Positions 2,575 through 14,017 are shown, counted from the first letter of the stretch. The stretch is 64,000 bases of DNA from DHVE2 group archaeon (GCA_026993785.1 JALWRZ010000010.1:213199-277198), one strand, 5' to 3'. Notes: generated by a model not told the origin, from the sequence alone. Program-made: numbers and translations.

Positions 2575-3513
2575 TTAAAGAAGTTTAATGAGAAATCCAA
2601 ACATGTCTAAGGAAGGAGAATAGGCGTGAACTCTCCTTTTTTCGAGAATTTTTATTCTGTAACCTAACTTTTCGGCTGTTTGGATAAGATTCTCCTCTCT
2701 TTTATTCTCCCGTGGTAGGATTTCGTAGTAATGTATTTCGCCACCTTTTTTCAATGTAGCTAAGGCATAGGGAAGAAACTCAAAGGAGGAGTGGGGGAGA
2801 TTCATTATGACCCTATCCACATCCTTCATTCTCTTTGCAATCACCCTGGCATCACCGAGATACACTTCTATTCCCTCCACCTTGTTTATTCTTATATTTT
2901 CCTTCAGATACTCCACTGCGTGGGGGTTTATATCGCAGGCATAAATTTTCACCTTTCTGTATTTGGCTATAAGAATTGAGAAGGGTCCGCATCCTGCAAA
3001 CATATCAAATATCTTTTCTCCATCCCTCACTCTCTGCACAACTCGCCATCTTTCCGTCGCGAGCCTGGGAGAAAAATATACCTTGCCAAGATCCACCTTT
3101 AATCTTATACCATATTCCCTATGGATGGTTTCCAAGCTGTCTCCCTTAACAAGCTTAAGTTTTCTTATTCTCTCCTCACCTTCAACGCCGTAATCTATCG
3201 CTATCACTCTAATATTCCTTCTCTTCTTGAGCTTCTCTATAACTTTATCCAGATCTCTTCCTTCTCTGTATTTCACAATGGCGATATCCCCCACAATATC
3301 GTATGCACCTATCTTTCCCCTCTCTTTTCTGTACTCTTCAAAATCTTCGTAGACAATGGGGAAACCCTCCATCTCTTCTTTAACTGGGATAATTACGTAT
3401 TCTCCATCTTTCTTTATTTTTAGCTCTGCGATAAGATCACGAGATGCCAAATATCTGCGAATCCTCTCTGCCTCTTTCCTGTGCACTTTTACGCCGGGAG
3501 CTCTCATCCTCAT
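2575..3513 (-). CDS. trm5: tRNA (guanine37-N1)-methyltransferase Trm5
   Basis: Transfers methyl from SAM to N1 of G37 in tRNA, which prevents frameshifting. The SAM-binding motif FAGCGPFSILIAK and the family NLPHSSFEFL motif near the C-terminus identify it; an N-terminal D1-like domain precedes the Rossmann core. The length of 312 fits archaeal Trm5. The start overlaps the stop of the upstream kinase gene by four bases, so it is probably read from the kinase transcript. Related Taw2 aminocarboxypropyl transferases share the fold, but the NLP motif favours Trm5. Confidence 0.9.
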   Translation of the reverse strand: MRMRAPGVKVHRKEAERIRRYLASRDLIAELKIKKDGEYVIIPVKEEMEGFPIVYEDFEEYRKERGKIGAYDIVGDIAIVKYREGRDLDKVIEKLKKRRNIRVIAIDYGVEGEERIRKLKLVKGDSLETIHREYGIRLKVDLGKVYFSPRLATERWRVVQRVRDGEKIFDMFAGCGPFSILIAKYRKVKIYACDINPHAVEYLKENIRINKVEGIEVYLGDARVIAKRMKDVDRVIMNLPHSSFEFLPYALATLKKGGEIHYYEILPRENKREENLIQTAEKLGYRIKILEKRRVHAYSPSLDMFGFLIKLL

Positions 3514-6500
3514 TCCTTAGGGATTCTTACTACAAATATGCTTCCCTGGGGTTTGTTATCCTCGACCCATATCTCTCCATCGTGAAGTTCCACAAGCATC
3601 TTCACAATGGTGAGACCAAGTCCGCTGCCCTTCACAGAGGTATCTGCCCTCTGAAACGGCTCGAAAATCTTCTTCTTTATTTTATCAGGTATTCCTGGGC
3701 CATCATCCGCTATTCTGATTTCCACCATGTAGTCCTTCTCTTCCGCCGTCACATCCACACGATTGGCACCGTATTTGAACGCATTATCCAAAAGATTCGT
3801 GAATACTTCCTTTAAAATGGGATAAGCTTCTATGAAGATATCCTTCATATCTATACGAAGCTCCTTCTCGGGATATTTCTCGCGGATAAGTGAGGCTACG
3901 CCCTCTATCATCTCCCTTAAGTTGATCTCCTCTTTCTCCTCATCTATTTTCTTTCTGCCCAGCTTGGAGAAGAGTCTTGCTCTTTCAATTATCTCCTCGG
4001 CCTCCTTTATGGCATTGTCCATGGCCTCCAAGAACTCCTCCGATGGCATCTCTCTCATAAGGTCAATATAACCCCTCAGCACCGCTAGAGGATTCTTCAG
4101 GTCATGGCTTATTATGTGGACCATAAGCTCCTGCAGGTTCCTGGCCTTTTTCTCCTCTTCCATGGCCTCTAATCCTGCAAGGGCTACGCCCATATGAGAC
4201 GCGAGCATATCCAGGAGAAGTCTCTCATCCTCACTTATGCTATCGACCTCATCGCGCTGCACATCAAGCACCCCGTATACTTTGTCCTTCGCATAGATGG
4301 GCGTAGCATACTCGCATCTCGCACTTTCAACACCTGGCACATAAAGAGGATCTTTAGTAACGTCAGGGCTGTAGTAGGGGGCTTTGTTCCTTATAACCCA
4401 AGGGGTAATTCCCTTGTCTCCATAGAGATCTAGGACTACATCGGGATTGGTGTAACCTCTGTGCTTCCTGATAATTACTTTATCACCTACTACTTTGCCT
4501 ATGGCTACATTGCGGAAATTGAGAATGTTGTAAAGAGAATCGATTGCGATCTCATAAATTTCATCCTCATTCCTGGCCAGTTTTATCTCCTCGAATACCT
4601 TCACCATAGCTATGAGATTGTCCTCCATCTCCTTAATCTGGGTTATATCTTGAAGGGAAACCATGTCTCCGGGAGCTCCTTCCCACTCCACCACATTGGC
4701 CTTGGTTAGGGCCCACAGAACCTCTCCATTTTTCTTCAAAAATTTCACTATGTAGCTCTCGGGGATCTTCTCTCCTCTCATTCTCCTGCGGTAGTTCTCA
4801 AGGAGGTAATCTCTCATATCAGGATGCACAAATTTTGTGAAGCGCTCGCCGATCATTTCATTCACAGCATATCCGAGCATATCTGCCAGTGCCTTATTTA
4901 CAAATACCATTTTCTCATCCTGAATCACGGCGATGCCGCTCAGCATGTTTTCCAGAAGATTCTTGTATTTCTCCCATTCTTTTCTTAGCCTCTCTTCCCA
5001 TCTTTTTCTTTCGGTAATATCCATATTCACTCCAATGGTTCCTATAACGTTACCTTTGGAATCCTTGAGAGGAGAAGCATGGATTAGAACATTGATGAGT
5101 TTTCCATCCTTCGTGATGAAAACAGATTCGTAGGAATCGCTTATGCCCTTCTTTCTTCTCTCTGTACCTTCCTTCATCTTTCGGTATCCTTCCTCGGTGG
5201 TTAGCTCCCTTAGATTCTTACCTATAAGCTCTTCTGGTCTATAGCCAAGCATTTCCGCAAATTTCCTATTGGTGAAGGTTATGTTATCGTCCAAATCGGT
5301 GGTGACTATACCAACTATGCTTGTGTTTATAAGATTTTCAAATCTTTCCCTCGCTATCTCTGTCTCGGTATAAAGCTGGGCATTGGCAATGGCTATGGAG
5401 AGAACCGGTGCTATGGTTTCCAGAAGTTTTTTCTCTTCCTCACCTATATTTTTCTCCTTGCTTTGAATGAATACGGCTCCAATAACCTTGTTTTTATAAC
5501 GCAGGGGCACGCCTAAAAACGAACCAGGAATCCAGCCGATAACATGAACCTTAACAGGAACCTTCTTTACATCCCTCTCAAAATCTTTCAAAAGAAGAGT
5601 TTTTCCTGTTTTTATCACGAAACCTGTCAAAGAATCTGTGAGTTTTAGAGGTTTAAGTTTGTAGGTTATATCCACATCCTCTTCTATGAATTTCTCCATT
5701 CTTACCTCATTATTTTTTTCGTCGTAGACAGCTATGGAGTAGGTATCAAAACGCATGATTTTCTTCAATTCTTCATAAATTTTCAGGTAAAGCTTCTGTA
5801 AATCTAACTCGGAGCTTATACTCTGTGTAAAATCGTAGAGGAGCTGAAGCTGCTGGTTTTGCTTCAACAACCTTTCTTCTGCAGCCTTTCTTTCCCTTAT
5901 ATCCTCCAAGATTGCACCCATAGTTTTTACTTTTCCATTCTTATCCCTTACCACTATGATTTTTAGATGCACAGGTATCTTGTTTCCATACTTATCCTTT
6001 CTCACAGTTTCTATCTCCCATTTCCCGCTTTTTCTCATCTCTTCCAGCTCTTTTTTCTGCTGCCCCTCATAAACTTCAAAAATAGACACATGCTTTCCTA
6101 GAAGCTCATCTTTTTTCCAACCAAAGATTTCTTCCATGGCTTTGTTGGCATATATGATTTTTCCCTCATTATCTGTGAGTATTACTCCATCACTGAAATG
6201 CTCCAGCGCTGTGGCAAGTCTAAGAATTTCTTTCTCTCTCTCCTTCCTTTCAGTGATATCTCGTCCTGTAATTAAGGCATGAACTTTTCCATTTATTATA
6301 AACGCGGATGGTGATATTTCGAGGAAAAAGATTTCCCCATTTTTTCTTTGTGCAGGGACCTCGATGAGGGGATATCTCTTGAATCCCAGGGTTCCCTTGA
6401 GAATCATCTCCGCAATTTTTCTCGTTCTCTCTCGATATTCTTTTGGTACGAGATATTCAAAATATTTCTTTCCCACAATCTCTTCGGCAGTGTATCCAAA

Positions 6501-7697
6501 TATCTTCTCTGCCGCCGGATTCCAGTACTCTATTCTTCCTTTGGAATCCACCATTATTATGGCATCTCTCGCCATCTCGCCTATAGCCCTGTAGCGCATC
6601 TCTATCTCATTTCTCTTTGAGAGGTCTCGGGCAATGATGATAACGAGCTCCTTGCCTCCAATTTCCACCAGATTTGCAGAGAGCTCGATGGGAACAAGAT
6701 AACCTTTTTTATGCCTATTAAACACCTCCATTACAATGTGCTTATTCTTCTTGAGTATGCTTCCTATGGTGGGTAGTCTATCTCTCATCTCTTCAGGTAT
6801 TATGGCTTCAAGTCCCTTCTCCAACAGCTCTTCGCGGGTATAACCAAGCATTTCCGCTGCTTGTTTATTTACATCTATAATTTTGCCATCTAATGTTTCA
6901 ATGAAAATTCCATCGGGAGAGCTATCTATTATGGATTTGTAGAATTTTCGCTCCTCTTCAAGCTTTTCTTCCAATTTTTTTCTTTCCGTGATATCATGCT
7001 TTATGGCTACAAAGTTGATTATCTCCCCCTTCTCATTTTTTACGGGAACGATGGTCATCTCTTCCCAGTAGAGTGTTCCATCCTTTCTCTTATTTATCAA
7101 CTCCCCATGCCAGATTTTGCCCGAGAGAATGGTGTCCCACATATTCTTGTAAAATTCCCTGGTATGTTTGCCACTTTTCAGAATTCTTGGATTCTGACCA
7201 ATAGCTTCCTTAGCTGTATAACCGGTAAGCTTGGTGAATGCGGGGTTAACATACTGGATGGTGCCATTAACATCCGCAACAACAAGGGCTTCCACCATAT
7301 TATCTGTGGCAGATTTGATTATCTTTGTTTCCTGGTAAATTTCATAGAAACGGGTGCGATCTATTATTGTAGCCACGAAAAATTCTCCTGTAAAATTGAA
7401 TCTCAACTCTACAAAATAAGTCTGGCCATGGGTATTAGTAAGCCTAACAACATCAGTTCTTGCTTCACCACTCTTTTTAGCTCTCTCTAAAGCGTTCTGA
7501 ATGATTTTGCGATCTTCATCAATAACCAAATCCAGAAAATTTTTACCTATAATCTCTTCTTTTTTTACCTTTCCTCTTCTAAGGGTCTCTGCATTACAAT
7601 CCAAGATAGTGTAATCTTTATCCAAAAGCACAATACCGATCGTGATCTCATCGCATATTTTTCCTAATCTCTTCTCTACAGGGGTCACGGATATCAA
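3510..7697 (-). CDS. Large cytosolic sensor histidine kinase, about seven PAS and two GAF domains
   Basis: A 1395-residue kinase with no membrane segment. Reading along the protein I see five consecutive PAS domains (about 10-610, most ending in a D-I-T-E-R-K-type junction), a GAF domain (630-780), two more PAS domains (790-1030) and a second GAF (1040-1180). The dimerisation/phosphoacceptor helix follows, with the histidine in HIISHDLKNPL, then an HATPase domain with N box LLDNAFKYGA, DDGPGIP and GSGLGLTIVK. All catalytic boxes are intact. It lies 50 bp downstream of a receiver-only protein, its likely partner. The input signal is unknown; such PAS/GAF arrays usually sense redox, gases or small ligands. 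From the first GAF onward it has the same layout as the kinase at 47.2 kb. Confidence 0.92.
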   Translation of the reverse strand: MISVTPVEKRLGKICDEITIGIVLLDKDYTILDCNAETLRRGKVKKEEIIGKNFLDLVIDEDRKIIQNALERAKKSGEARTDVVRLTNTHGQTYFVELRFNFTGEFFVATIIDRTRFYEIYQETKIIKSATDNMVEALVVADVNGTIQYVNPAFTKLTGYTAKEAIGQNPRILKSGKHTREFYKNMWDTILSGKIWHGELINKRKDGTLYWEEMTIVPVKNEKGEIINFVAIKHDITERKKLEEKLEEERKFYKSIIDSSPDGIFIETLDGKIIDVNKQAAEMLGYTREELLEKGLEAIIPEEMRDRLPTIGSILKKNKHIVMEVFNRHKKGYLVPIELSANLVEIGGKELVIIIARDLSKRNEIEMRYRAIGEMARDAIIMVDSKGRIEYWNPAAEKIFGYTAEEIVGKKYFEYLVPKEYRERTRKIAEMILKGTLGFKRYPLIEVPAQRKNGEIFFLEISPSAFIINGKVHALITGRDITERKEREKEILRLATALEHFSDGVILTDNEGKIIYANKAMEEIFGWKKDELLGKHVSIFEVYEGQQKKELEEMRKSGKWEIETVRKDKYGNKIPVHLKIIVVRDKNGKVKTMGAILEDIRERKAAEERLLKQNQQLQLLYDFTQSISSELDLQKLYLKIYEELKKIMRFDTYSIAVYDEKNNEVRMEKFIEEDVDITYKLKPLKLTDSLTGFVIKTGKTLLLKDFERDVKKVPVKVHVIGWIPGSFLGVPLRYKNKVIGAVFIQSKEKNIGEEEKKLLETIAPVLSIAIANAQLYTETEIARERFENLINTSIVGIVTTDLDDNITFTNRKFAEMLGYRPEELIGKNLRELTTEEGYRKMKEGTERRKKGISDSYESVFITKDGKLINVLIHASPLKDSKGNVIGTIGVNMDITERKRWEERLRKEWEKYKNLLENMLSGIAVIQDEKMVFVNKALADMLGYAVNEMIGERFTKFVHPDMRDYLLENYRRRMRGEKIPESYIVKFLKKNGEVLWALTKANVVEWEGAPGDMVSLQDITQIKEMEDNLIAMVKVFEEIKLARNEDEIYEIAIDSLYNILNFRNVAIGKVVGDKVIIRKHRGYTNPDVVLDLYGDKGITPWVIRNKAPYYSPDVTKDPLYVPGVESARCEYATPIYAKDKVYGVLDVQRDEVDSISEDERLLLDMLASHMGVALAGLEAMEEEKKARNLQELMVHIISHDLKNPLAVLRGYIDLMREMPSEEFLEAMDNAIKEAEEIIERARLFSKLGRKKIDEEKEEINLREMIEGVASLIREKYPEKELRIDMKDIFIEAYPILKEVFTNLLDNAFKYGANRVDVTAEEKDYMVEIRIADDGPGIPDKIKKKIFEPFQRADTSVKGSGLGLTIVKMLVELHDGEIWVEDNKPQGSIFVVRIPKE

Positions 7698-7747: not shown

Positions 7748-8074
7748 TTAAAATTCCAGGTATTTAAGAAGTTCCTCGATACGGAATGGCTTATGGAGAA
7801 CTTTATATTTCTCGTGGGTCAAATCATCAAAGGCTGAAATTATGAGTATCCTATCTTTATTCACCTTCTTTTCCGCCTCCTTCGCTAGAGTGAATCCATC
7901 CACTCCCGGAAGTTCGTAATCAAGAATGTAGAAATCATAATTCTCCTCTTTTATTTTTTCAAGAGCCTCTTCTCCATCATAAAATGCATCTACCTCTGCA
8001 GATTTTTTCTTCTTCAGTATATCCTTAATCAACCCGACCATGGAACGGCTATCTTCTACCACCATTATTTTCAT
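7748..8074 (-). CDS. Stand-alone response-regulator receiver (CheY-like) protein
   Basis: A 108-residue receiver domain with no output domain. The acidic pair E7-D8 (VVEDS), the phospho-accepting D52 (ILDYELPG), a Ser in ISAF and the conserved Lys in HKPF are all present, so it should be phosphorylatable. It is first in an apparent unit with the large PAS/GAF kinase (50 bp gap), and the two probably form a phosphorelay. With no effector domain it would have to act by protein contact or pass the phosphate on. A TATA-like ttatata stretch sits about 25-30 bases before the start, and a perfect 14-bp palindrome lies just upstream of that. Confidence 0.93.
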   Translation of the reverse strand: MKIMVVEDSRSMVGLIKDILKKKKSAEVDAFYDGEEALEKIKEENYDFYILDYELPGVDGFTLAKEAEKKVNKDRILIISAFDDLTHEKYKVLHKPFRIEELLKYLEF

Positions 8075-8112
8075 CGTAATAGATATCGTTATGGAAGTAT
8101 ATAAAAGGTTAT

Positions 8113-8126
8113 ATGAGCATGCTCAT
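8113..8126. promoter_or_regulatory. Perfect 14-bp palindrome upstream of the receiver gene TATA box
   Basis: ATGAGCATGCTCAT equals its own reverse complement. It lies directly upstream (on the minus strand) of the CCTTTTATATA promoter element of the receiver/kinase unit, where an archaeal activator or a repressor that occludes the factor-B site would bind. Assignment as an operator is inference; the palindrome itself is exact. Confidence 0.4.
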
Positions 8127-8196
8127 TTTGTAGCACTTTGCATCAAAATTTTTCGATTAATATCGCTGATTCTCACAAAATTAGAATACTCTCTAT

Positions 8197-8221
8197 ACTT
8201 TTAAATAACCTGGTTCGAACC
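8197..8221 (+). promoter_or_regulatory. Promoter of the secreted peptide gene with a 10-bp palindrome
   Basis: The TATA-like element ACTTTTAAATAA is followed at 8212-8221 by GGTTCGAACC, a perfect palindrome located between the TATA box and the expected transcription start near 8225. A site there would block transcription when occupied. GGTGAT at about 8230-8235 is a Shine-Dalgarno sequence for the ATG at 8240. Confidence 0.45.
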
Positions 8222-8239
8222 GTTTTCTTGGTGATTAAG

Positions 8240-8455
8240 ATGAATAGGAAACTCCTATTTGGGATTATAGCGATTCTGGCGCTCTTCGGTATAGCGGTCC
8301 TCTCAGGGGTGCACGCCAGCACGGGGGTTACGCTTCTGGACGATTCATCCTCCAATGGCCAAACGCAGGACGATCCTCCGCTTGACTATGATTATGCAGT
8401 GATATTCCATACCCAGCTATTGGACGATCCTCCGCTCGATTATGATTATGCTTGA
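8240..8455 (+). CDS. Small secreted peptide with duplicated DDPPLDYDYA motif
   Basis: A 71-residue protein of no family I recognise. Residues 1-26 form a clear signal peptide: basic start MNRK, a hydrophobic stretch, then a plausible cleavage site after VHA. The mature part is about 45 residues, acidic and rich in Asp and Tyr. It contains the same 10-residue block, DDPPLDYDYA, twice, the second copy ending exactly at the C-terminus; the repeat is also visible in the DNA (spacing 57 bases). A TATA box and GGTGAT Shine-Dalgarno support the ATG at 8240. The last 10 bases overlap the 3' end of the convergent STAND/TPR regulator. It could be a secreted signal, a processed peptide or a small surface protein. 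Confidence 0.72.
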   Translation: MNRKLLFGIIAILALFGIAVLSGVHASTGVTLLDDSSSNGQTQDDPPLDYDYAVIFHTQLLDDPPLDYDYA

Positions 8456-11013
8456 TTTTTTGTGACAATGGCCACCACCTTTTTCTCCCCTTCTGCGATT
8501 TTTTGATAATCTTCCACATCTATGTGGGAGAATCTGGAGAGGATATCCGCGGCTAATTTTGCATACCTTACAGCTCTAAACTCATTACCAAGTTCCATGG
8601 AGAGGGATATAGCTCTGTCAAAGTACTCCTTGGATTTTTCTCCCTCTCCCATATCCGCATAGGTGTAGCCAAATTGAATATATATGGAGGGAAGGACATC
8701 CAGGCCCCCCATCTCCCGAAACTCTTTCTCCACCGAGGATAGGAGCTCCAAAGCTCTTTCGTAATTCCCTCTATGATGATGTATTGCCGCAATATTTCTT
8801 TTAGTTAGCGCGATATTCCACCTATCCCCAATCATTTCGAATATTTTTAGAGCATGAAGGAAATGATTCTCCGCCAGATATATGTTCTTCTCTCCTCCCA
8901 AATCATAATAAACCAGTCCAAGGTTACCAAGGGCCTTTGCCTCTTCCCTTCTATTGCCGGAAGCCTCAAAATAGTTCTTCGCCCTCTGGAGATAATCCAG
9001 GGCAAGATTCTCCGCTTTGGTATGGCGATAAAGAATGCCTAAACCCTGATAGGCGTATCCAAGAGCCTCGTAATCTGAAATCCTCTCGCTTATCTTGAGA
9101 ACCTCGCTGAAATGCTCCTCCGCACTGTAGGTATCCCCAGAATACAGGGATAGGAGACCAAGTACATATCTAGCTCTGGCTATAACTCTCATATCCCTCA
9201 TTTCAACTATATATCTCAATGCCTCTTTGAGAGCCTCCTTTGCTTTTACATACTTACCCCTCTTTCTCAGGATATCCGCCATCTCCACAGCACTGAGTAC
9301 AAAGTAATCCACATCCCTGTGCTTGGAAAGATCCCTGGCCTTCTCATAGTTCTCTAAAGCCTCATCCATCTTGCCCTCCACATCGTAGGTGGCAGCAAGT
9401 ATTCCGTAAAGCTCCCATTCATGATCGCTAACAGATAAATCATAATTGTTCAGGATGGAATAGGCGAGCTCCCTGATTTTCTGAAGCTCCCCTTTCATTA
9501 GATATCTACGATAGGATTCCACAAGCAACCGGGATGCCATGGGTATCTCATCTCCGCGGATATAGTGATACACAGCCTCCAGATGCTCTCCCTCTTCTTC
9601 AAGATATCTTGCGGCATAGTGATGATACTCCTTAACCCTGTGGGGCGGCAAGCTCTTATAGACGAAATCCCGGATTATTCTGTGGAGGAGAACCCTCTCA
9701 TCTCCAATTTCCTTAAGTATATTTTTGTTGACAAGAGAATAGATCACGATGTAATCCACATCGTTCAACAGGAGGAAATTTGGTTTGAAAGGTCTTCGGA
9801 AAATGGACGCGAGTTCAAGCGCTTTCCTCTCCTCGGGAGTAAGTGAATATATCACATTCTCAATGAAGAATTTTCTTACCATCCGGGGATTCCCATTTTT
9901 CGCCAGGAGCTCGAGCACCAGCGGCGTTGCACCATATTCGGAGATTATTTTTTCTGCCTCTTCAACACTTTTTCCATTATCGACCAAGAAGGTAATGGCA
10001 TCATTCCTCTCAAGATCGCCCAGCGCAAGCTCTTCAAGCAGAACCATCTTACTTGCGGGGACAATACCATGGGGGATCTCTGCGCCTATCAAAATTACCC
10101 TTAATTCCTTGGTTTCATCCACCATATTCAAAATTCTGCGTAGCATGTCCTTCACATCTTCCCTGGCATTCTCCAATCCATCAAAGATAAGAACCTCGTT
10201 TCTCAGATCATTTCTGAGAATCTGGTATACATTTTCCCACCTGAGCTCCTTCTCAAATCCCATCAGGGCGCTTTTCATATATCTTTCAAGCTTGGATTTA
10301 CCTATCTTGGATAGGAAATTACTAAGCTTTATTATGAGATCTGCCGCGCTGACCCACTGTTCCACCTGAAACCACACAAGATTTCTGTTTTTTAAATAAT
10401 CCTTCACGAATTTATTAACCAGGGTAGTTTTACCGCTGCCGGATATACCTGTGATCATTAAAATCCTCTTTCTTGATTTCAGCCAGCTCTTGAGCTGAGC
10501 AAACTCTTTTTTGCGTCCATAGAAATATCTTATTTTAAAATCCATCTCTATCATATGCACCGCTTTATCGTTTAACCCCATAAGATCCATTAGATCCAGC
10601 TTCTTATCCTTGGTTACAAAAAGCGCCGCTGAGATTACATCTATCCCAAATTTTTTGGGGATATCTTTTATTTTCATCTGAGAGACATTCCCAGAGAGGT
10701 CTATTATACTCACATATATCTCCTTTATCTTATCCCTAATTTTTTTCGCTTCTTGAATGCCGAGAGGCGTGAGAAAATATACAGACCGTCTGTTCCGGAA
10801 ACCATTAACCCTGGCCTTTTTTTGCGCAACCAATCGCATCTCCAGAAGCTTCTTCATCTCCCGGGGAACGTTATTTCTACCCAATCCAATAGCTTCACCT
10901 ATTCCATCCTGGGTTAATGCCCTAGGGGAAACATAATCCTCAATCTCCTTTGATGAATAATTTAAAAGGTAGAGAAGAATCCTCTCCCTGGCAGTTAAGA
11001 GCTTCTTTGACAT
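8446..11013 (-). CDS. Winged-helix/STAND ATPase/TPR transcription regulator
   Basis: An 855-residue regulator with MalT-like logic. Residues 1-95 are a winged helix (a QDGIGEAIGL recognition region, then the RSVYFLTPLG wing). Residues 165-450 are a STAND-type NTPase with Walker A GISGSGKTT at about 189-197 and Walker B VLIFDGLENA. Residues about 480-840 consist of TPR units (EALENYEKA, ALDYLQRAKNYFE, ALELLSSVEKEF and others). In this class a ligand or partner protein binding the TPR or arm region allows ATP-driven activation. A TATA-like ACTTATATG lies about 27 bases before the ATG, suggesting a leaderless mRNA. It is tail-to-tail with the secreted peptide gene, which may be its signal or target. 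Confidence 0.9.
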   Translation of the reverse strand: MSKKLLTARERILLYLLNYSSKEIEDYVSPRALTQDGIGEAIGLGRNNVPREMKKLLEMRLVAQKKARVNGFRNRRSVYFLTPLGIQEAKKIRDKIKEIYVSIIDLSGNVSQMKIKDIPKKFGIDVISAALFVTKDKKLDLMDLMGLNDKAVHMIEMDFKIRYFYGRKKEFAQLKSWLKSRKRILMITGISGSGKTTLVNKFVKDYLKNRNLVWFQVEQWVSAADLIIKLSNFLSKIGKSKLERYMKSALMGFEKELRWENVYQILRNDLRNEVLIFDGLENAREDVKDMLRRILNMVDETKELRVILIGAEIPHGIVPASKMVLLEELALGDLERNDAITFLVDNGKSVEEAEKIISEYGATPLVLELLAKNGNPRMVRKFFIENVIYSLTPEERKALELASIFRRPFKPNFLLLNDVDYIVIYSLVNKNILKEIGDERVLLHRIIRDFVYKSLPPHRVKEYHHYAARYLEEEGEHLEAVYHYIRGDEIPMASRLLVESYRRYLMKGELQKIRELAYSILNNYDLSVSDHEWELYGILAATYDVEGKMDEALENYEKARDLSKHRDVDYFVLSAVEMADILRKRGKYVKAKEALKEALRYIVEMRDMRVIARARYVLGLLSLYSGDTYSAEEHFSEVLKISERISDYEALGYAYQGLGILYRHTKAENLALDYLQRAKNYFEASGNRREEAKALGNLGLVYYDLGGEKNIYLAENHFLHALKIFEMIGDRWNIALTKRNIAAIHHHRGNYERALELLSSVEKEFREMGGLDVLPSIYIQFGYTYADMGEGEKSKEYFDRAISLSMELGNEFRAVRYAKLAADILSRFSHIDVEDYQKIAEGEKKVVAIVTKNQA

Positions 11014-11108: not shown

Positions 11109-11744
11109 TCACAGATCTTCTTCCTCCATTAGGGCTTTGAGAATATTAAACGACTTTCTTAGTTCTTCCTTTAAATATTGGTGATACAGGGCAGCAGCGG
11201 GATGATACATGGGCAGGATTAATATTTTATCAGTCTTATAAATTTTCCCTTGGGATTTAGTTATACTTTCCATTTGAAATCCAAATTTCTCTAGAATATA
11301 TTTTGAGGAAAATCTGCCCAAAGGGCATATTATTCTGGGATTCAGTAGATTTATCTGACGATCCAGAAAAGGTGAGCATAGCTTTATCTCCATATCTGTT
11401 GGGTCCCTATTTCCTGGGGGACGGCATTTTACTATATTGGTGATATAAACATCCTCTCTCGTTAATCCTATGGAACTGAGGAGTTCGTCTAGGAATTTAC
11501 CAGCAGCACCTACAAAGGGCCTGCCAAGCTCATCCTCTCTTCTTCCCGGGGCTTCTCCCACAAACATCACTCTTCTTCTATGACCCCCCTCCCCTGGCAC
11601 CGCATGTTTCCTTGTTTTATGCAGCGGACATTTTTTGCATTCTCTTATCTCTTTCTCAATCTCTTCCATGGAGTCGCTGAAGGAGAAAAGGTCTGTCTGC
11701 ATAGGCCATCCATGGGATGGGAGAATATAAATTTTTAGAGTCAC
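11109..11744 (-). CDS. Family 4 uracil-DNA glycosylase (4Fe-4S)
   Basis: Removes uracil from DNA, important in a thermophile where cytosine deaminates quickly. The motif GEAPGRREDELGRPFVG is the family 4 active-site block. Four cysteines in CKKC, VKCRPP and KLCSPF match the Fe-S ligands of the family. The GTG start used here overlaps the stop of the MIP18 gene (GTGA); the conserved part begins only near MEEIEKEI, so an internal ATG is possible. It is the last gene of the iscS operon, which suits an Fe-S enzyme. The second C-terminal motif reads YHPAAALYH. Confidence 0.92.
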   Translation of the reverse strand: MTLKIYILPSHGWPMQTDLFSFSDSMEEIEKEIRECKKCPLHKTRKHAVPGEGGHRRRVMFVGEAPGRREDELGRPFVGAAGKFLDELLSSIGLTREDVYITNIVKCRPPGNRDPTDMEIKLCSPFLDRQINLLNPRIICPLGRFSSKYILEKFGFQMESITKSQGKIYKTDKILILPMYHPAAALYHQYLKEELRKSFNILKALMEEEDL

Positions 11745-12040
11745 CAGCCATAGAGCTTTTTAAGTTCCTCGCTCATTCTATCGGGACTCCATGGGGGATC
11801 AAAGGTAAGCTGCACGGTTATCTTTTCCACGCCTTCCAGTTGCTTTATTCTCTCTTCAACCTGGGCGGGAAGAACGTTCATTAGGGGGCATCCTGGAACC
11901 GTAAGGGTCATTTTAACGTAGACATCCTTACCATCGGTAACCCTAACCTCATAGATTAATCCCAGATCCACTACATTTGCACCAATTTCCGGATCCACCA
12001 CGTCTTTAAGAGCCTTCCAGACTTCTTCTTCATTTACCAT
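11741..12040 (-). CDS. MIP18/DUF59 family Fe-S assembly protein
   Basis: A 99-residue protein of the SufT/MIP18 type, thought to help mature or carry Fe-S clusters. The family signature is clear: DVVDPEIGANVVDLGLIY near the N-terminus and the cysteine motif TVPGCPLMN in the middle, then FDPPWSPDRMS. It lies 12 bases after the YHS gene and overlaps the UDG gene by four bases. Its place in an operon with iscS- and iscU-like genes supports an assembly role. A related domain is also fused to the IscU protein two genes upstream. Confidence 0.92.
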   Translation of the reverse strand: MVNEEEVWKALKDVVDPEIGANVVDLGLIYEVRVTDGKDVYVKMTLTVPGCPLMNVLPAQVEERIKQLEGVEKITVQLTFDPPWSPDRMSEELKKLYGW

Positions 12041-12052
12041 TTTTTCACCTCC

Positions 12053-12214
12053 TTAACAGGAATTTTCATCCCATTTCTCCATTATGTATCTAGAGGGTTT
12101 TTCCTTAAATTTTCTCAGGCATTCATCGCTGCAGAAATAGTAAATGCGTCCATGATATTCATACTTCAACTCCGATTTTTTCACCTTTTTGCCGCACACC
12201 GGATCAAAGGGCAA
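12053..12214 (-). CDS. YHS-domain metal-binding protein
   Basis: A small protein of about 53 residues made almost entirely of a YHS/TRASH-like domain: DPVCGKKV, an HGRIYYFCSDECLRKF block and a final NSC. The cysteines probably bind a metal (copper, iron or zinc). I place the start at a TTG (12214) because GGAGGTGA stands five bases before it. An ATG at 12244 in the same frame would force a 41-bp overlap with iscU and adds residues not typical of the domain. Position inside the Fe-S operon suggests iron or copper handling. Confidence 0.82.
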   Translation of the reverse strand: MPFDPVCGKKVKKSELKYEYHGRIYYFCSDECLRKFKEKPSRYIMEKWDENSC

Positions 12215-12833
12215 TCTGCTCACCTCCAATGAAAATCTTGGCATTTATGGGTAAGGTTTCGAATACTTCCATAATATTAGAAATTATCTCCTCCAGGAAT
12301 TCATCCCTTGGCACGGAAAGATGTATTTCCACCTCGCCCTCCTTTATTATCAATTTCTCTATAACCCCTGCCGAAATGAGGTCCTTATCCGTGTGGGGAT
12401 CGAGTATGCCCTTCAGGAGGGTCCTTATAAAATCTTTATCTAGGCCTCTTCTTCCCTGGATATATTCCCATTTTTCAAGGGCAATGCGCAATCCTGCAAC
12501 GGCAAGAACTGCACAGTGAAACTTTATTTTTGGCAGACCCCCAAGATTATCCACAACCTCCTGGAAAACTATCTTTCTGGCCTCTTCTATGCTTTTTCCC
12601 TTAACCATCTCGGTTATCATTGAACTTGTGGCAATGTTGGCCGCGCAGCCATAGGATTCAAAGGAAATATCCTCTATTATTTCCTTCTCTGGATCTATTT
12701 TGAGGTACAATTTGATCATATCTCCACAGGCCACGCTGCCCGTTAAAGCAGTTACATTCGCATCTTCTAATTTCCCCGCGTTTTTCGGATACATAAATAA
12801 CTCCATGACCTTTCTGGAATATCCCACCTTCAT
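12204..12833 (-). CDS. IscU-like scaffold fused to a DUF59/MIP18-like domain
   Basis: Residues 1-125 are an IscU/NifU-N scaffold on which Fe-S clusters are built. The ligands are visible: C36-G-D38, C63 (YGCAAN) and H106-C107 (KFHC). Residues about 128-209 resemble a MIP18/DUF59 domain (LLKGILDPHTDKDLISAGVI) but lack its usual cysteine. The usual IscU length is about 130, so the extra 80 residues are a fusion. The start overlaps the stop of the iscS-like gene by four bases, and the two products very probably interact. The LPPVK chaperone motif of bacterial IscU is replaced by LPKIK. Confidence 0.9.
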   Translation of the reverse strand: MKVGYSRKVMELFMYPKNAGKLEDANVTALTGSVACGDMIKLYLKIDPEKEIIEDISFESYGCAANIATSSMITEMVKGKSIEEARKIVFQEVVDNLGGLPKIKFHCAVLAVAGLRIALEKWEYIQGRRGLDKDFIRTLLKGILDPHTDKDLISAGVIEKLIIKEGEVEIHLSVPRDEFLEEIISNIMEVFETLPINAKIFIGGEQIAL

Positions 12834-13993
12834 TTTTTCCTCCTCCTATACAACGGGCTTATTTTCCTCAATCTTTCAATTATTTCCTCCATTTTCTCCA
12901 CTACAATCTTCATCTCCTCCATGGTGTTGTACCTGCTGAGCACCATACGTGTGGAGGAATTGGCATATTCCACACCAACCCCCAGGGCCTTTATGACATA
13001 GGATGGTTCAAGAGATTCATTGTAGCACGCGGAGCCTGTACGGAGGATTATGCCCTCCTGATTCGCAAGCATGAGTATGGCCTCCCCCTCCACACCCCTG
13101 AAGGAAACATTCACATTATCGCATACTCGCCTCTCCTTGGGACCATTTAAACGGGAATCCGGGATTTCCAGCAGGTGCTCTATAAGAAAATCGCGCATAT
13201 TGCGCATCTTTTCCACATGCTCTTCCCTCATGATTTCAATTGCCTTTGCGAAGCCCATTATGGCAGGCATATTGGGGTATCCTGCTCTTCTTCTCCGCTC
13301 CCTGTACGCACCGTGCAAAATCGGCTCTATTTTAAGACCCTCACGAATGAAAAGCGCACCTGAACCAAGAGGGCCATGAATAACATGCCCCGAGAAGGTA
13401 AGCATGTCCACTGGAATTTTTTCCACATCTATGCGTTCCCTAAGAAAAGAATGTGTTGCATCTGAGTGATATAGTGCACCACTGTCCTCTGCGAGTTCTC
13501 CAATCGCCTTTATATCCTGAACCACCCCAATCTCCTGATTTGCATGCTGAATACTCACAAGCTCCGCGCTTTTAATCTTCTCTTTCAGAATTTCTAGATT
13601 CACAAATCCCTCAGAATTCACAGGCACTTGCTCCACCTTGGCTCCAAAATTTCTAAGGTATTCAGCGCTTCTCAATACGCATTTTCTCTCGATGGGTGAG
13701 GTGATTATTCTTGCCACTCCTTTTTTTCGAAGAATGGGAAATACTGCACCTTTGATGGCCAGGTTGTTTCCTTCAGTCACACCTGAGGTGAACACTATTT
13801 CTTCAGGATATGCATTGATCCTCTTTGCCAGTGTTTCCCGAGCTTTCCATAGGGCTTCGGATGCCTCCTCTTCGTATCTGTGTCCGAATTCGCCTCCTGG
13901 AACTCCAAATTTATCCAGGTAGTACCTTTTCATCTCCTCGAAGACTTCCAAAGCTACACGGCTTACATTTCCATTATCTAGATAAATTTCCAT
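12830..13993 (-). CDS. IscS/NifS-like protein lacking the PLP lysine
   Basis: About 387 residues with the full fold of a class V cysteine desulfurase and the persulfide cysteine C323 (RTGSACYNE). The pyridoxal phosphate lysine is gone: where the family has SxHK, this protein reads TFSGHVIHG (Val204). Two other cofactor contacts also differ: the His of the EHK motif is Arg (IERK), and the Gln of the DAxQ motif is His (DATHS). Desulfurase activity is therefore doubtful. A structurally characterised IscS of Archaeoglobus fulgidus is reported, as I recall, to lack this lysine as well. The ATG at 13993 lies 30 bases from the TATA box; earlier in-frame starts fall too close to it. Confidence 0.88.
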   Translation of the reverse strand: MEIYLDNGNVSRVALEVFEEMKRYYLDKFGVPGGEFGHRYEEEASEALWKARETLAKRINAYPEEIVFTSGVTEGNNLAIKGAVFPILRKKGVARIITSPIERKCVLRSAEYLRNFGAKVEQVPVNSEGFVNLEILKEKIKSAELVSIQHANQEIGVVQDIKAIGELAEDSGALYHSDATHSFLRERIDVEKIPVDMLTFSGHVIHGPLGSGALFIREGLKIEPILHGAYRERRRRAGYPNMPAIMGFAKAIEIMREEHVEKMRNMRDFLIEHLLEIPDSRLNGPKERRVCDNVNVSFRGVEGEAILMLANQEGIILRTGSACYNESLEPSYVIKALGVGVEYANSSTRMVLSRYNTMEEMKIVVEKMEEIIERLRKISPLYRRRKK

Positions 13994-14017
13994 ACAATTA
14001 TCCATTGATAACACATA

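Follow-up and report, generated by a model that had tools for sequence, protein, structure and literature searches.

A gene for a small secreted-type protein lies beside the gene of a large regulator in the DNA of a DHVE2 group archaeon. Is the small protein the precursor of a peptide signal that its neighbour reads? Such a functional link had been proposed in an earlier note on the window (i.e., the whole analysed stretch of 64,000 nucleotides, to which all positions refer). Here, we compare the locus with 18 genomes of the DHVE2/Aciduliprofundum family, archaea of deep-sea vents, and with the wider class, represented by 400 genomes. The relatives are mostly fragmentary metagenome assemblies and the sample is small (14 species, one or two losses); one family genome, G007, is a complete single contig and carries the module.

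Layout of the locus and its two main proteins

Positions 7748-11013 hold three open reading frames (ORFs), namely a receiver gene (minus strand), a 71-aa gene (plus strand) and the gene of an 855-aa regulator (minus strand). The latter two run tail-to-tail (8240-8455 vs. 8446-11013) with a 10 bp overlap at their ends, as had been described. The features and their basis are as follows.

7748-8074, minus: response regulator consisting of a receiver only (108 aa), divergent from the peptide gene (PF00072 match)
8098-8105, minus: response-regulator TATA box, TTTATATA on the minus strand (position conserved in 14 species)
8114-8125, no strand: operator-like palindrome TGAGCATGCTCA (kept in 14 species)
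8200-8207, plus: TATA-like box of the peptide promoter, TTTAAATA (alignment of 14 upstream regions)
8212-8221, no strand: previously reported palindrome GGTTCGAACC, probably chance (not conserved)
8240-8455, plus: small secreted-type protein, 71 aa, putative propeptide and pheromone precursor candidate (translation, 14 family members, AlphaFold2)
8240-8317, plus: N-terminal basic and hydrophobic segment, residues 1-26, signal-peptide-like or membrane anchor (sequence, hydropathy)
8369-8398, plus: repeat copy 1, DDPPLDYDYA, residues 44-53 (translation)
8423-8452, plus: repeat copy 2, DDPPLDYDYA, residues 62-71, extreme C-terminus (translation)
8446-11013, minus: wHTH-STAND NTPase-TPR regulator (855 aa) of PH0952 type, putative receptor of the peptide (domain search, profiles, model)
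10720-11013, minus: predicted winged-helix DNA-binding domain, regulator residues 1-98 (alignment, weak Pfam matches)
10024-10533, minus: STAND NTPase domain, regulator residues 161-330 (domain search, alignment)
9499-10023, minus: HD/WHD/arm region, regulator residues 331-505, limits approximate (6MFV profile match, model)
8494-9498, minus: TPR superhelix, regulator residues 506-840, candidate peptide-binding region (domain search, model, Foldseek)

The small gene encodes MNRKLLFGIIAILALFGIAVLSGVHASTGVTLLDDSSSNGQTQDDPPLDYDYAVIFHTQLLDDPPLDYDYA (71 aa, ATG 8240 to stop 8455, plus strand). Its start codon is supported because all relatives have a Met at the aligned position, closely preceded by a GGTG ribosome-binding motif. 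Both copies of DDPPLDYDYA are exact and the second ends at the stop codon, which agrees with what had been reported. A basic N-terminus and a strong hydrophobic segment (peak hydropathy 2.6-3.2) are found in 14/14 precursors; an AlphaFold2 single-sequence model of the window's precursor places a helix at residues 3-28 and leaves the remainder unstructured at low confidence. The junction between VHA and ST is a possible cleavage site. Signal-peptidase sites are not clearly conserved among the precursors, while most of them keep [MV]H directly after the hydrophobic segment, and the segment could also be an uncleaved anchor. Precursor length is 71-78 aa in 13/14 cases (G002 being truncated at 71) and 118 aa in G005.

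The regulator (orthologues about 840-855 aa) shows the expected architecture in a domain search, i.e., an N-terminal winged helix, an AAA/STAND NTPase and C-terminal TPRs; an AlphaFold2 model based on 24 homologues has a mean pLDDT of 87. Pfam matches of the winged helix (HTH_Crp_2/TrmB/MarR) are weak and all below cut-off; the model gives helix-helix-helix-wing order at the N-terminus, and the GRNNVPRE stretch of the predicted recognition helix is near-invariant among regulators. Within the NTPase, the P-loop (G189-x2-G-x-GK195) and D278 are invariant. The TPR part, for which a superhelix is confidently predicted, is matched by TPR_12 (E=1.5e-22) and by further TPR models. In Foldseek, PH0952 of Pyrococcus horikoshii (PDB 6MFV) and the peptide-binding TPR proteins LGN and APPBP2 are among the neighbours.

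PH0952 is the nearest natural solved protein by sequence (E 2.5e-67, profile positions 153-474) and the best Foldseek match (E 1.1e-18). Given a low global TM-score (0.25-0.31), the regulator matches PH0952 in its domains, not in their arrangement. Both proteins comprise an N-terminal DNA-binding domain, NTPase-HD-WHD, arm and TPRs. With its N-terminal winged helix, its STAND NTPase with HD-WHD-arm and its C-terminal TPR sensor, the regulator belongs with the STAND proteins of PH0952 type and is not an RRNPP receptor. The accessible part of the PH0952 publication describes a STAND protein with a TPR sensor and an ArsR-like N-terminal domain and, in that part, names no inducer or partner peptide (PMC6468293), whereas a candidate peptide gene adjoins the regulator studied here.

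Distribution of the trio and its intergenic sites

We searched for the small gene with one sequence, with profiles and in the DNA beside regulator orthologues, and found it in 14/18 family genomes. The one-sequence search returns close relatives within the genus and weak ones within the family. A profile built from the 14 proteins was run against the 400 class genomes. Every strong match (E below 1e-21) falls within the DHVE2/Aciduliprofundum family, and the remaining genomes hold no credible relative; the weaker matches there (E 2.8e-5 to 0.01) were rejected as mostly hydrophobic N-termini or hits inside long ORFs. Regulator orthologues are present in 17/18 family genomes and, within the order, are confined to this family. 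We found no paralogous regulator-peptide pair within the same genome and no regulator copy among the viruses of IMG/VR.

Conserved pairing in relatives had been suggested as a check, and it was found throughout: the regulator adjoins the small gene tail-to-tail in 13/13 testable genomes (the contig of G002 is cut), with stop codons ranging from a 10 bp overlap to 13 bp apart in the 12 measured cases. The response regulator likewise faces the small gene in 13/13 testable loci (the contig of G006 is cut). It matches Response_reg (PF00072, E=2.8e-19), and its relatives keep the phospho-acceptor Asp, the acidic pair and the Lys. The genes flanking the trio vary between genera and no gene beyond it is conserved beside it. 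Judged by this conservation, the trio is a three-gene module private to the Aciduliprofundum/DHVE2 family.

Regulators lacking an adjacent small secreted gene, which had been named as an observation that would speak against the pairing, are confined to three family members (G004, G010, G012) and to genomes beyond the family. Outside, about 20 regulator homologues from other Thermoplasmata (roughly 21-30% identity) have no such gene nearby according to a filter on size and hydropathy, which accepts 14/14 known precursors.

The response-regulator gene had been overlooked in the earlier note, as had the conserved palindrome TGAGCATGCTCA at 8114-8125. Between 10 and 12 of its bases are kept in 14/14 species, where a spacing of 7-8 bp separates it from the TATA box of the response regulator downstream; the start codon of that gene is 36-41 bp away from the palindrome. 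Since it lies upstream of both predicted TATA boxes, it should be a DNA site and not an RNA hairpin. The winged helix of the regulator is a natural candidate for its binder, because of the near-invariance of GRNNVPRE. Across the 1.66 Mb of this genome, there is a single exact copy of the 12-mer. A genome-wide regulon was considered and rejected: among 16 sites with up to 1 mismatch, the module's own is the one exact site, and the near-matches inspected are mostly coding, the few intergenic ones being isolated (L095 and L099 in this genome, L121 in G007).

The palindrome of the earlier note, GGTTCGAACC, fared differently. It is present and perfect (a single occurrence, 0 mismatches), but its proposed operator role was rejected: if up to 1 mismatch is tolerated, random expectation is about one site in the window, and the palindrome is missing upstream in 13/13 relatives, so it is probably chance. 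A weak candidate for a second site, resembling AGnATnCTCT, is seen just before the peptide TATA box (8160-8200) in many species but not in all, and we do not count it as a conserved element; in G007, G008 and G016 it reads GAGAATTCTC.

Repeat identity and the peptide-less genomes

Each of the 14 precursors carries 2-4 C-terminal repeats. In the complete precursors, i.e., leaving out the truncated one of G002, the final copies are DDPPLDYDYA, DDGPPLDYDFV, TDPPLDYDYW, TGPKIPDDSWDW, DGPHPPGDTPW(GQ), DGPHPSEPGSW, DPPHPPIIDDPW (two species), EGPHPADNYAW, DGPHPTDPDAW, DGPHPTDPSNW, DGPHPPYPDAW and QGPHPPLGDMDW. The last copy directly precedes the stop codon in 12/13 of them and ends two residues short of it in G006.

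Next, we compared repeat identity within and between precursors. Copies of one precursor share 0.88 identity. Copies taken from different species share 0.45, and 0.62 if both species belong to one genus. Permuting the repeat partners never yields a value as high (0/20000); when partners are shuffled within genera only, 26/20000 permutations do, which is about the floor since 864 arrangements are possible. For the pooled copies, we obtained a dS of 1.15 and a dN of 0.092 (ratio 0.08, bootstrap 0-0.18), and the two copies in the window differ at 3 synonymous codons only. Because the differences between copies are mostly silent, the sameness of the copies is selected, being held by purifying selection, while the code drifts between species. 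Exceptions to this pattern of old duplicates are G003, G009 and G013, whose copies are near-identical in DNA too. In the sister species G011 and G013 (DI/DA versus SN/SN), both copies changed in step, to which conversion between copies may have contributed. The overall pattern is what one would expect of a ligand read by one receptor, though it falls short of proof. The longer G005 precursor (L033:2569-2922) has four TGPKPPLDGWDW-type copies with extra cysteines ahead of them, where copies 2 and 3 encode the same protein with 9/12 codons different.

Fast change between species, together with a small precursor of the exported type, would also suit repeats that are released as an antagonistic peptide (an archaeocin or a kin-discrimination factor), with the STAND protein and the response regulator sensing or controlling it. 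No gene for immunity or export is conserved beside the trio, though, PADLOC matches are weak and generic, and the gene is single-copy and tracks the regulator tree, unlike a mobile locus. We thus consider an antagonist quite unlikely.

The three genomes that retain the regulator without the peptide (G004, G010, G012) yield no small gene in the profile search (best E 0.018, a signal-like piece only), and neither an adjacent response regulator nor the palindrome is found at their loci (L032, L038, L040). In G004/G010, about 1.8 kb separates the regulator from a receiver gene that looks different, with the gene of a 582-aa protein in between. This protein starts with MGKPVYLGK and directly follows the regulator in G004 (L032) and G010 (L038); in G012 (L040), it comes after a histidine kinase that follows the regulator. 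On the regulator tree, two changes are required, or a single one should the tree be slightly off, such that peptide loss amounts to one or two events.

We also compared regulator branch lengths. They are 0.99 for G012 and 1.14 for the G004/G010 stem, as against 0.29-0.44 in species of their genus that carry the peptide; the branch of G015, whose contig stops before the peptide position, is 0.61. The single control gene, a leuC-like neighbour, shows no acceleration (0.86-0.90 identity in every pair). Absence of the peptide thus coincides with long branches of the regulator and not of the control, which we count for a functional circuit. The acceleration spans all domains, is weakest in the winged helix and is not centred on the TPRs. 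Among the regulators compared, no residue is invariant in peptide-bearing and consistently lost in peptide-less ones; the binding site on the regulator is therefore not located by comparison.

These observations bear on two further alternatives. The three genes might be independently useful and stand together by chance or shared transcription, for which one could cite that the pairing is confined to one family and that distant regulator homologues do without the partner. Such a coincidence is very unlikely: the block persists while all flanks change, the peptide and the adjacent response regulator are missing together where the regulator is kept, and the regulator is accelerated after the loss. 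Alternatively, the small protein might stay membrane-anchored, with its acidic, proline- and aromatic-rich tail offering an envelope protein or a protease a bivalent motif to dock on, while the regulators only control it. The lack of a clearly conserved signal-peptidase site, the [MV]H after the hydrophobic segment in most members and the two copies as a source of bivalency agree with this. It poorly explains both the change between species under strict identity within a precursor and the long branches of the regulators left without a peptide, and we regard it as unlikely.

Proposed circuit, known systems and flanking genes

The reading we favour is a peptide circuit. As its N-terminus suggests, the precursor would be exported by the Sec route, and proteolysis would free the C-terminal repeats as short linear peptides, to which the repeats themselves point; the species code would read, e.g., DDPPLDYDYA here and GPHPSEPGSW in G007. 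Re-import would probably use oligopeptide ABC transporters of the SBP_bac_5 type. Such proteins are found in 17/18 family genomes; they are general nutrition genes, possibly for food, and prove nothing specific. Pairing and co-loss suggest that the peptide would bind the TPR superhelix of the neighbouring regulator, and binding would, by analogy with MalT, flip its NTPase from closed to open. Given the position of the site, the winged helix would then act at TGAGCATGCTCA and alter expression of the receiver-only response regulator, possibly also of the peptide gene. The conserved trio with its varying flanks, the repeat identity, the palindrome and the long branches after loss all argue for such a circuit from sequence comparison. 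We give the whole chain (export, cleavage, re-uptake, TPR binding, STAND switch and control at TGAGCATGCTCA) an even chance. That it is an archaeal pheromone circuit, in which a STAND regulator of the Apaf-1/MalT/PH0952 type reads a species-specific peptide code held as tandem copies in the neighbouring gene, we propose tentatively, at slightly less than even.

Among known systems, the FxSxx-COOH/HaaA RiPP systems also pair a STAND/NB-ARC-TPR protein with a short peptide of conserved C-terminus, and they need a radical SAM enzyme. The precursor could accordingly be read as a RiPP core peptide whose modifying enzyme is encoded elsewhere, all the more as HaaT and FxSxx TPR proteins are the best NCBIfam matches of the regulator and the C-terminal repeats are aromatic-rich. 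The scores lie far under the cut-offs (59.2 vs. 1125 and 57.6 vs. 300 bits, respectively), reflecting shared STAND/TPR domains. Moreover, neither a radical SAM enzyme nor another conserved modifying enzyme is seen beside the trio, judging neighbours from ORF lists and window homology, and the precursor bears a Sec-like signal. A RiPP is hence highly improbable.

MalT carries a C-terminal, LuxR-type DNA-binding domain and its ligand is maltotriose, in contrast to the N-terminal domain found here. Like the regulator, MalT of Escherichia coli is a STAND transcription factor with a TPR-like sensor; according to the accessible part of the source, a ligand activates it by binding in that sensor (PMC6468293).

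The RRNPP(A) systems of Bacillota (PlcR-PapR, Rgg-SHP, NprR, Rap-Phr) share a small precursor beside a TPR regulator, a C-terminal peptide and multiple copies. Within RRNPP, Rap proteins act on response regulators such as Spo0F. C-terminal pheromones are encoded beside the TPR receptor and re-imported via the oligopeptide permease, and Bacillus Phr propeptides hold 1-4 pheromone copies, with their gene adjoining that of the TPR receptor (PMC11343458). RRNPP_detector applies five criteria, including a propeptide of 10-100 aa by default, its export by SEC as called by SignalP and a receptor of about 250-500 aa (PMC10075063). When tested here, the precursor falls within the propeptide range, the receptor has TPRs and the genes are direct neighbours, while the regulator with its 855 aa exceeds the receptor range. 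As to export, 14/14 precursors show the basic N-terminus and strong hydrophobic segment described above. By analogy, this suggests that the module may work like RRNPP without being a member. The RRNPP/PlcR/Rgg comparison drawn earlier thus stands for the layout and fails for membership: RRNPP(A) receptors are HTH-TPR proteins of 250-500 aa from Bacillota, whereas the regulator is archaeal and has a STAND NTPase and a winged helix of archaeal type.

A literature search found no archaeal peptide pheromone, most subscription papers being outside its reach. A Haloferax study of 2025 lists only small or unidentified molecules as archaeal quorum-sensing signals (PMC12240190), and a large RRNPP survey covered Firmicutes and viruses (PMC10075063). 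If the link is true, the module would be the first known archaeal example of such a system, TPR-receptor peptide signalling would have arisen outside Bacillota with a different receptor class, and archaeal PH0952-like STAND proteins would gain a candidate type of natural ligand. The species code would, on the same reading, be an immediate and cheap handle for testing with synthetic peptides.

Two groups of flanking genes in the window are worth recording. A 1395-aa multi-PAS/GAF histidine kinase (3510-7697, minus strand) adjoins the response regulator. The trio has a related kinase as neighbour in G001, G002 and G017 and lacks one in most other species; in G012, such a kinase stands beside the peptide-less regulator. 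On the other side, DUF59-like, YHS-like, IscU/NifU-like and cysteine-desulfurase-like genes (11741-14014, minus strand) form, judged by eye, a probable iron-sulphur cluster assembly operon.
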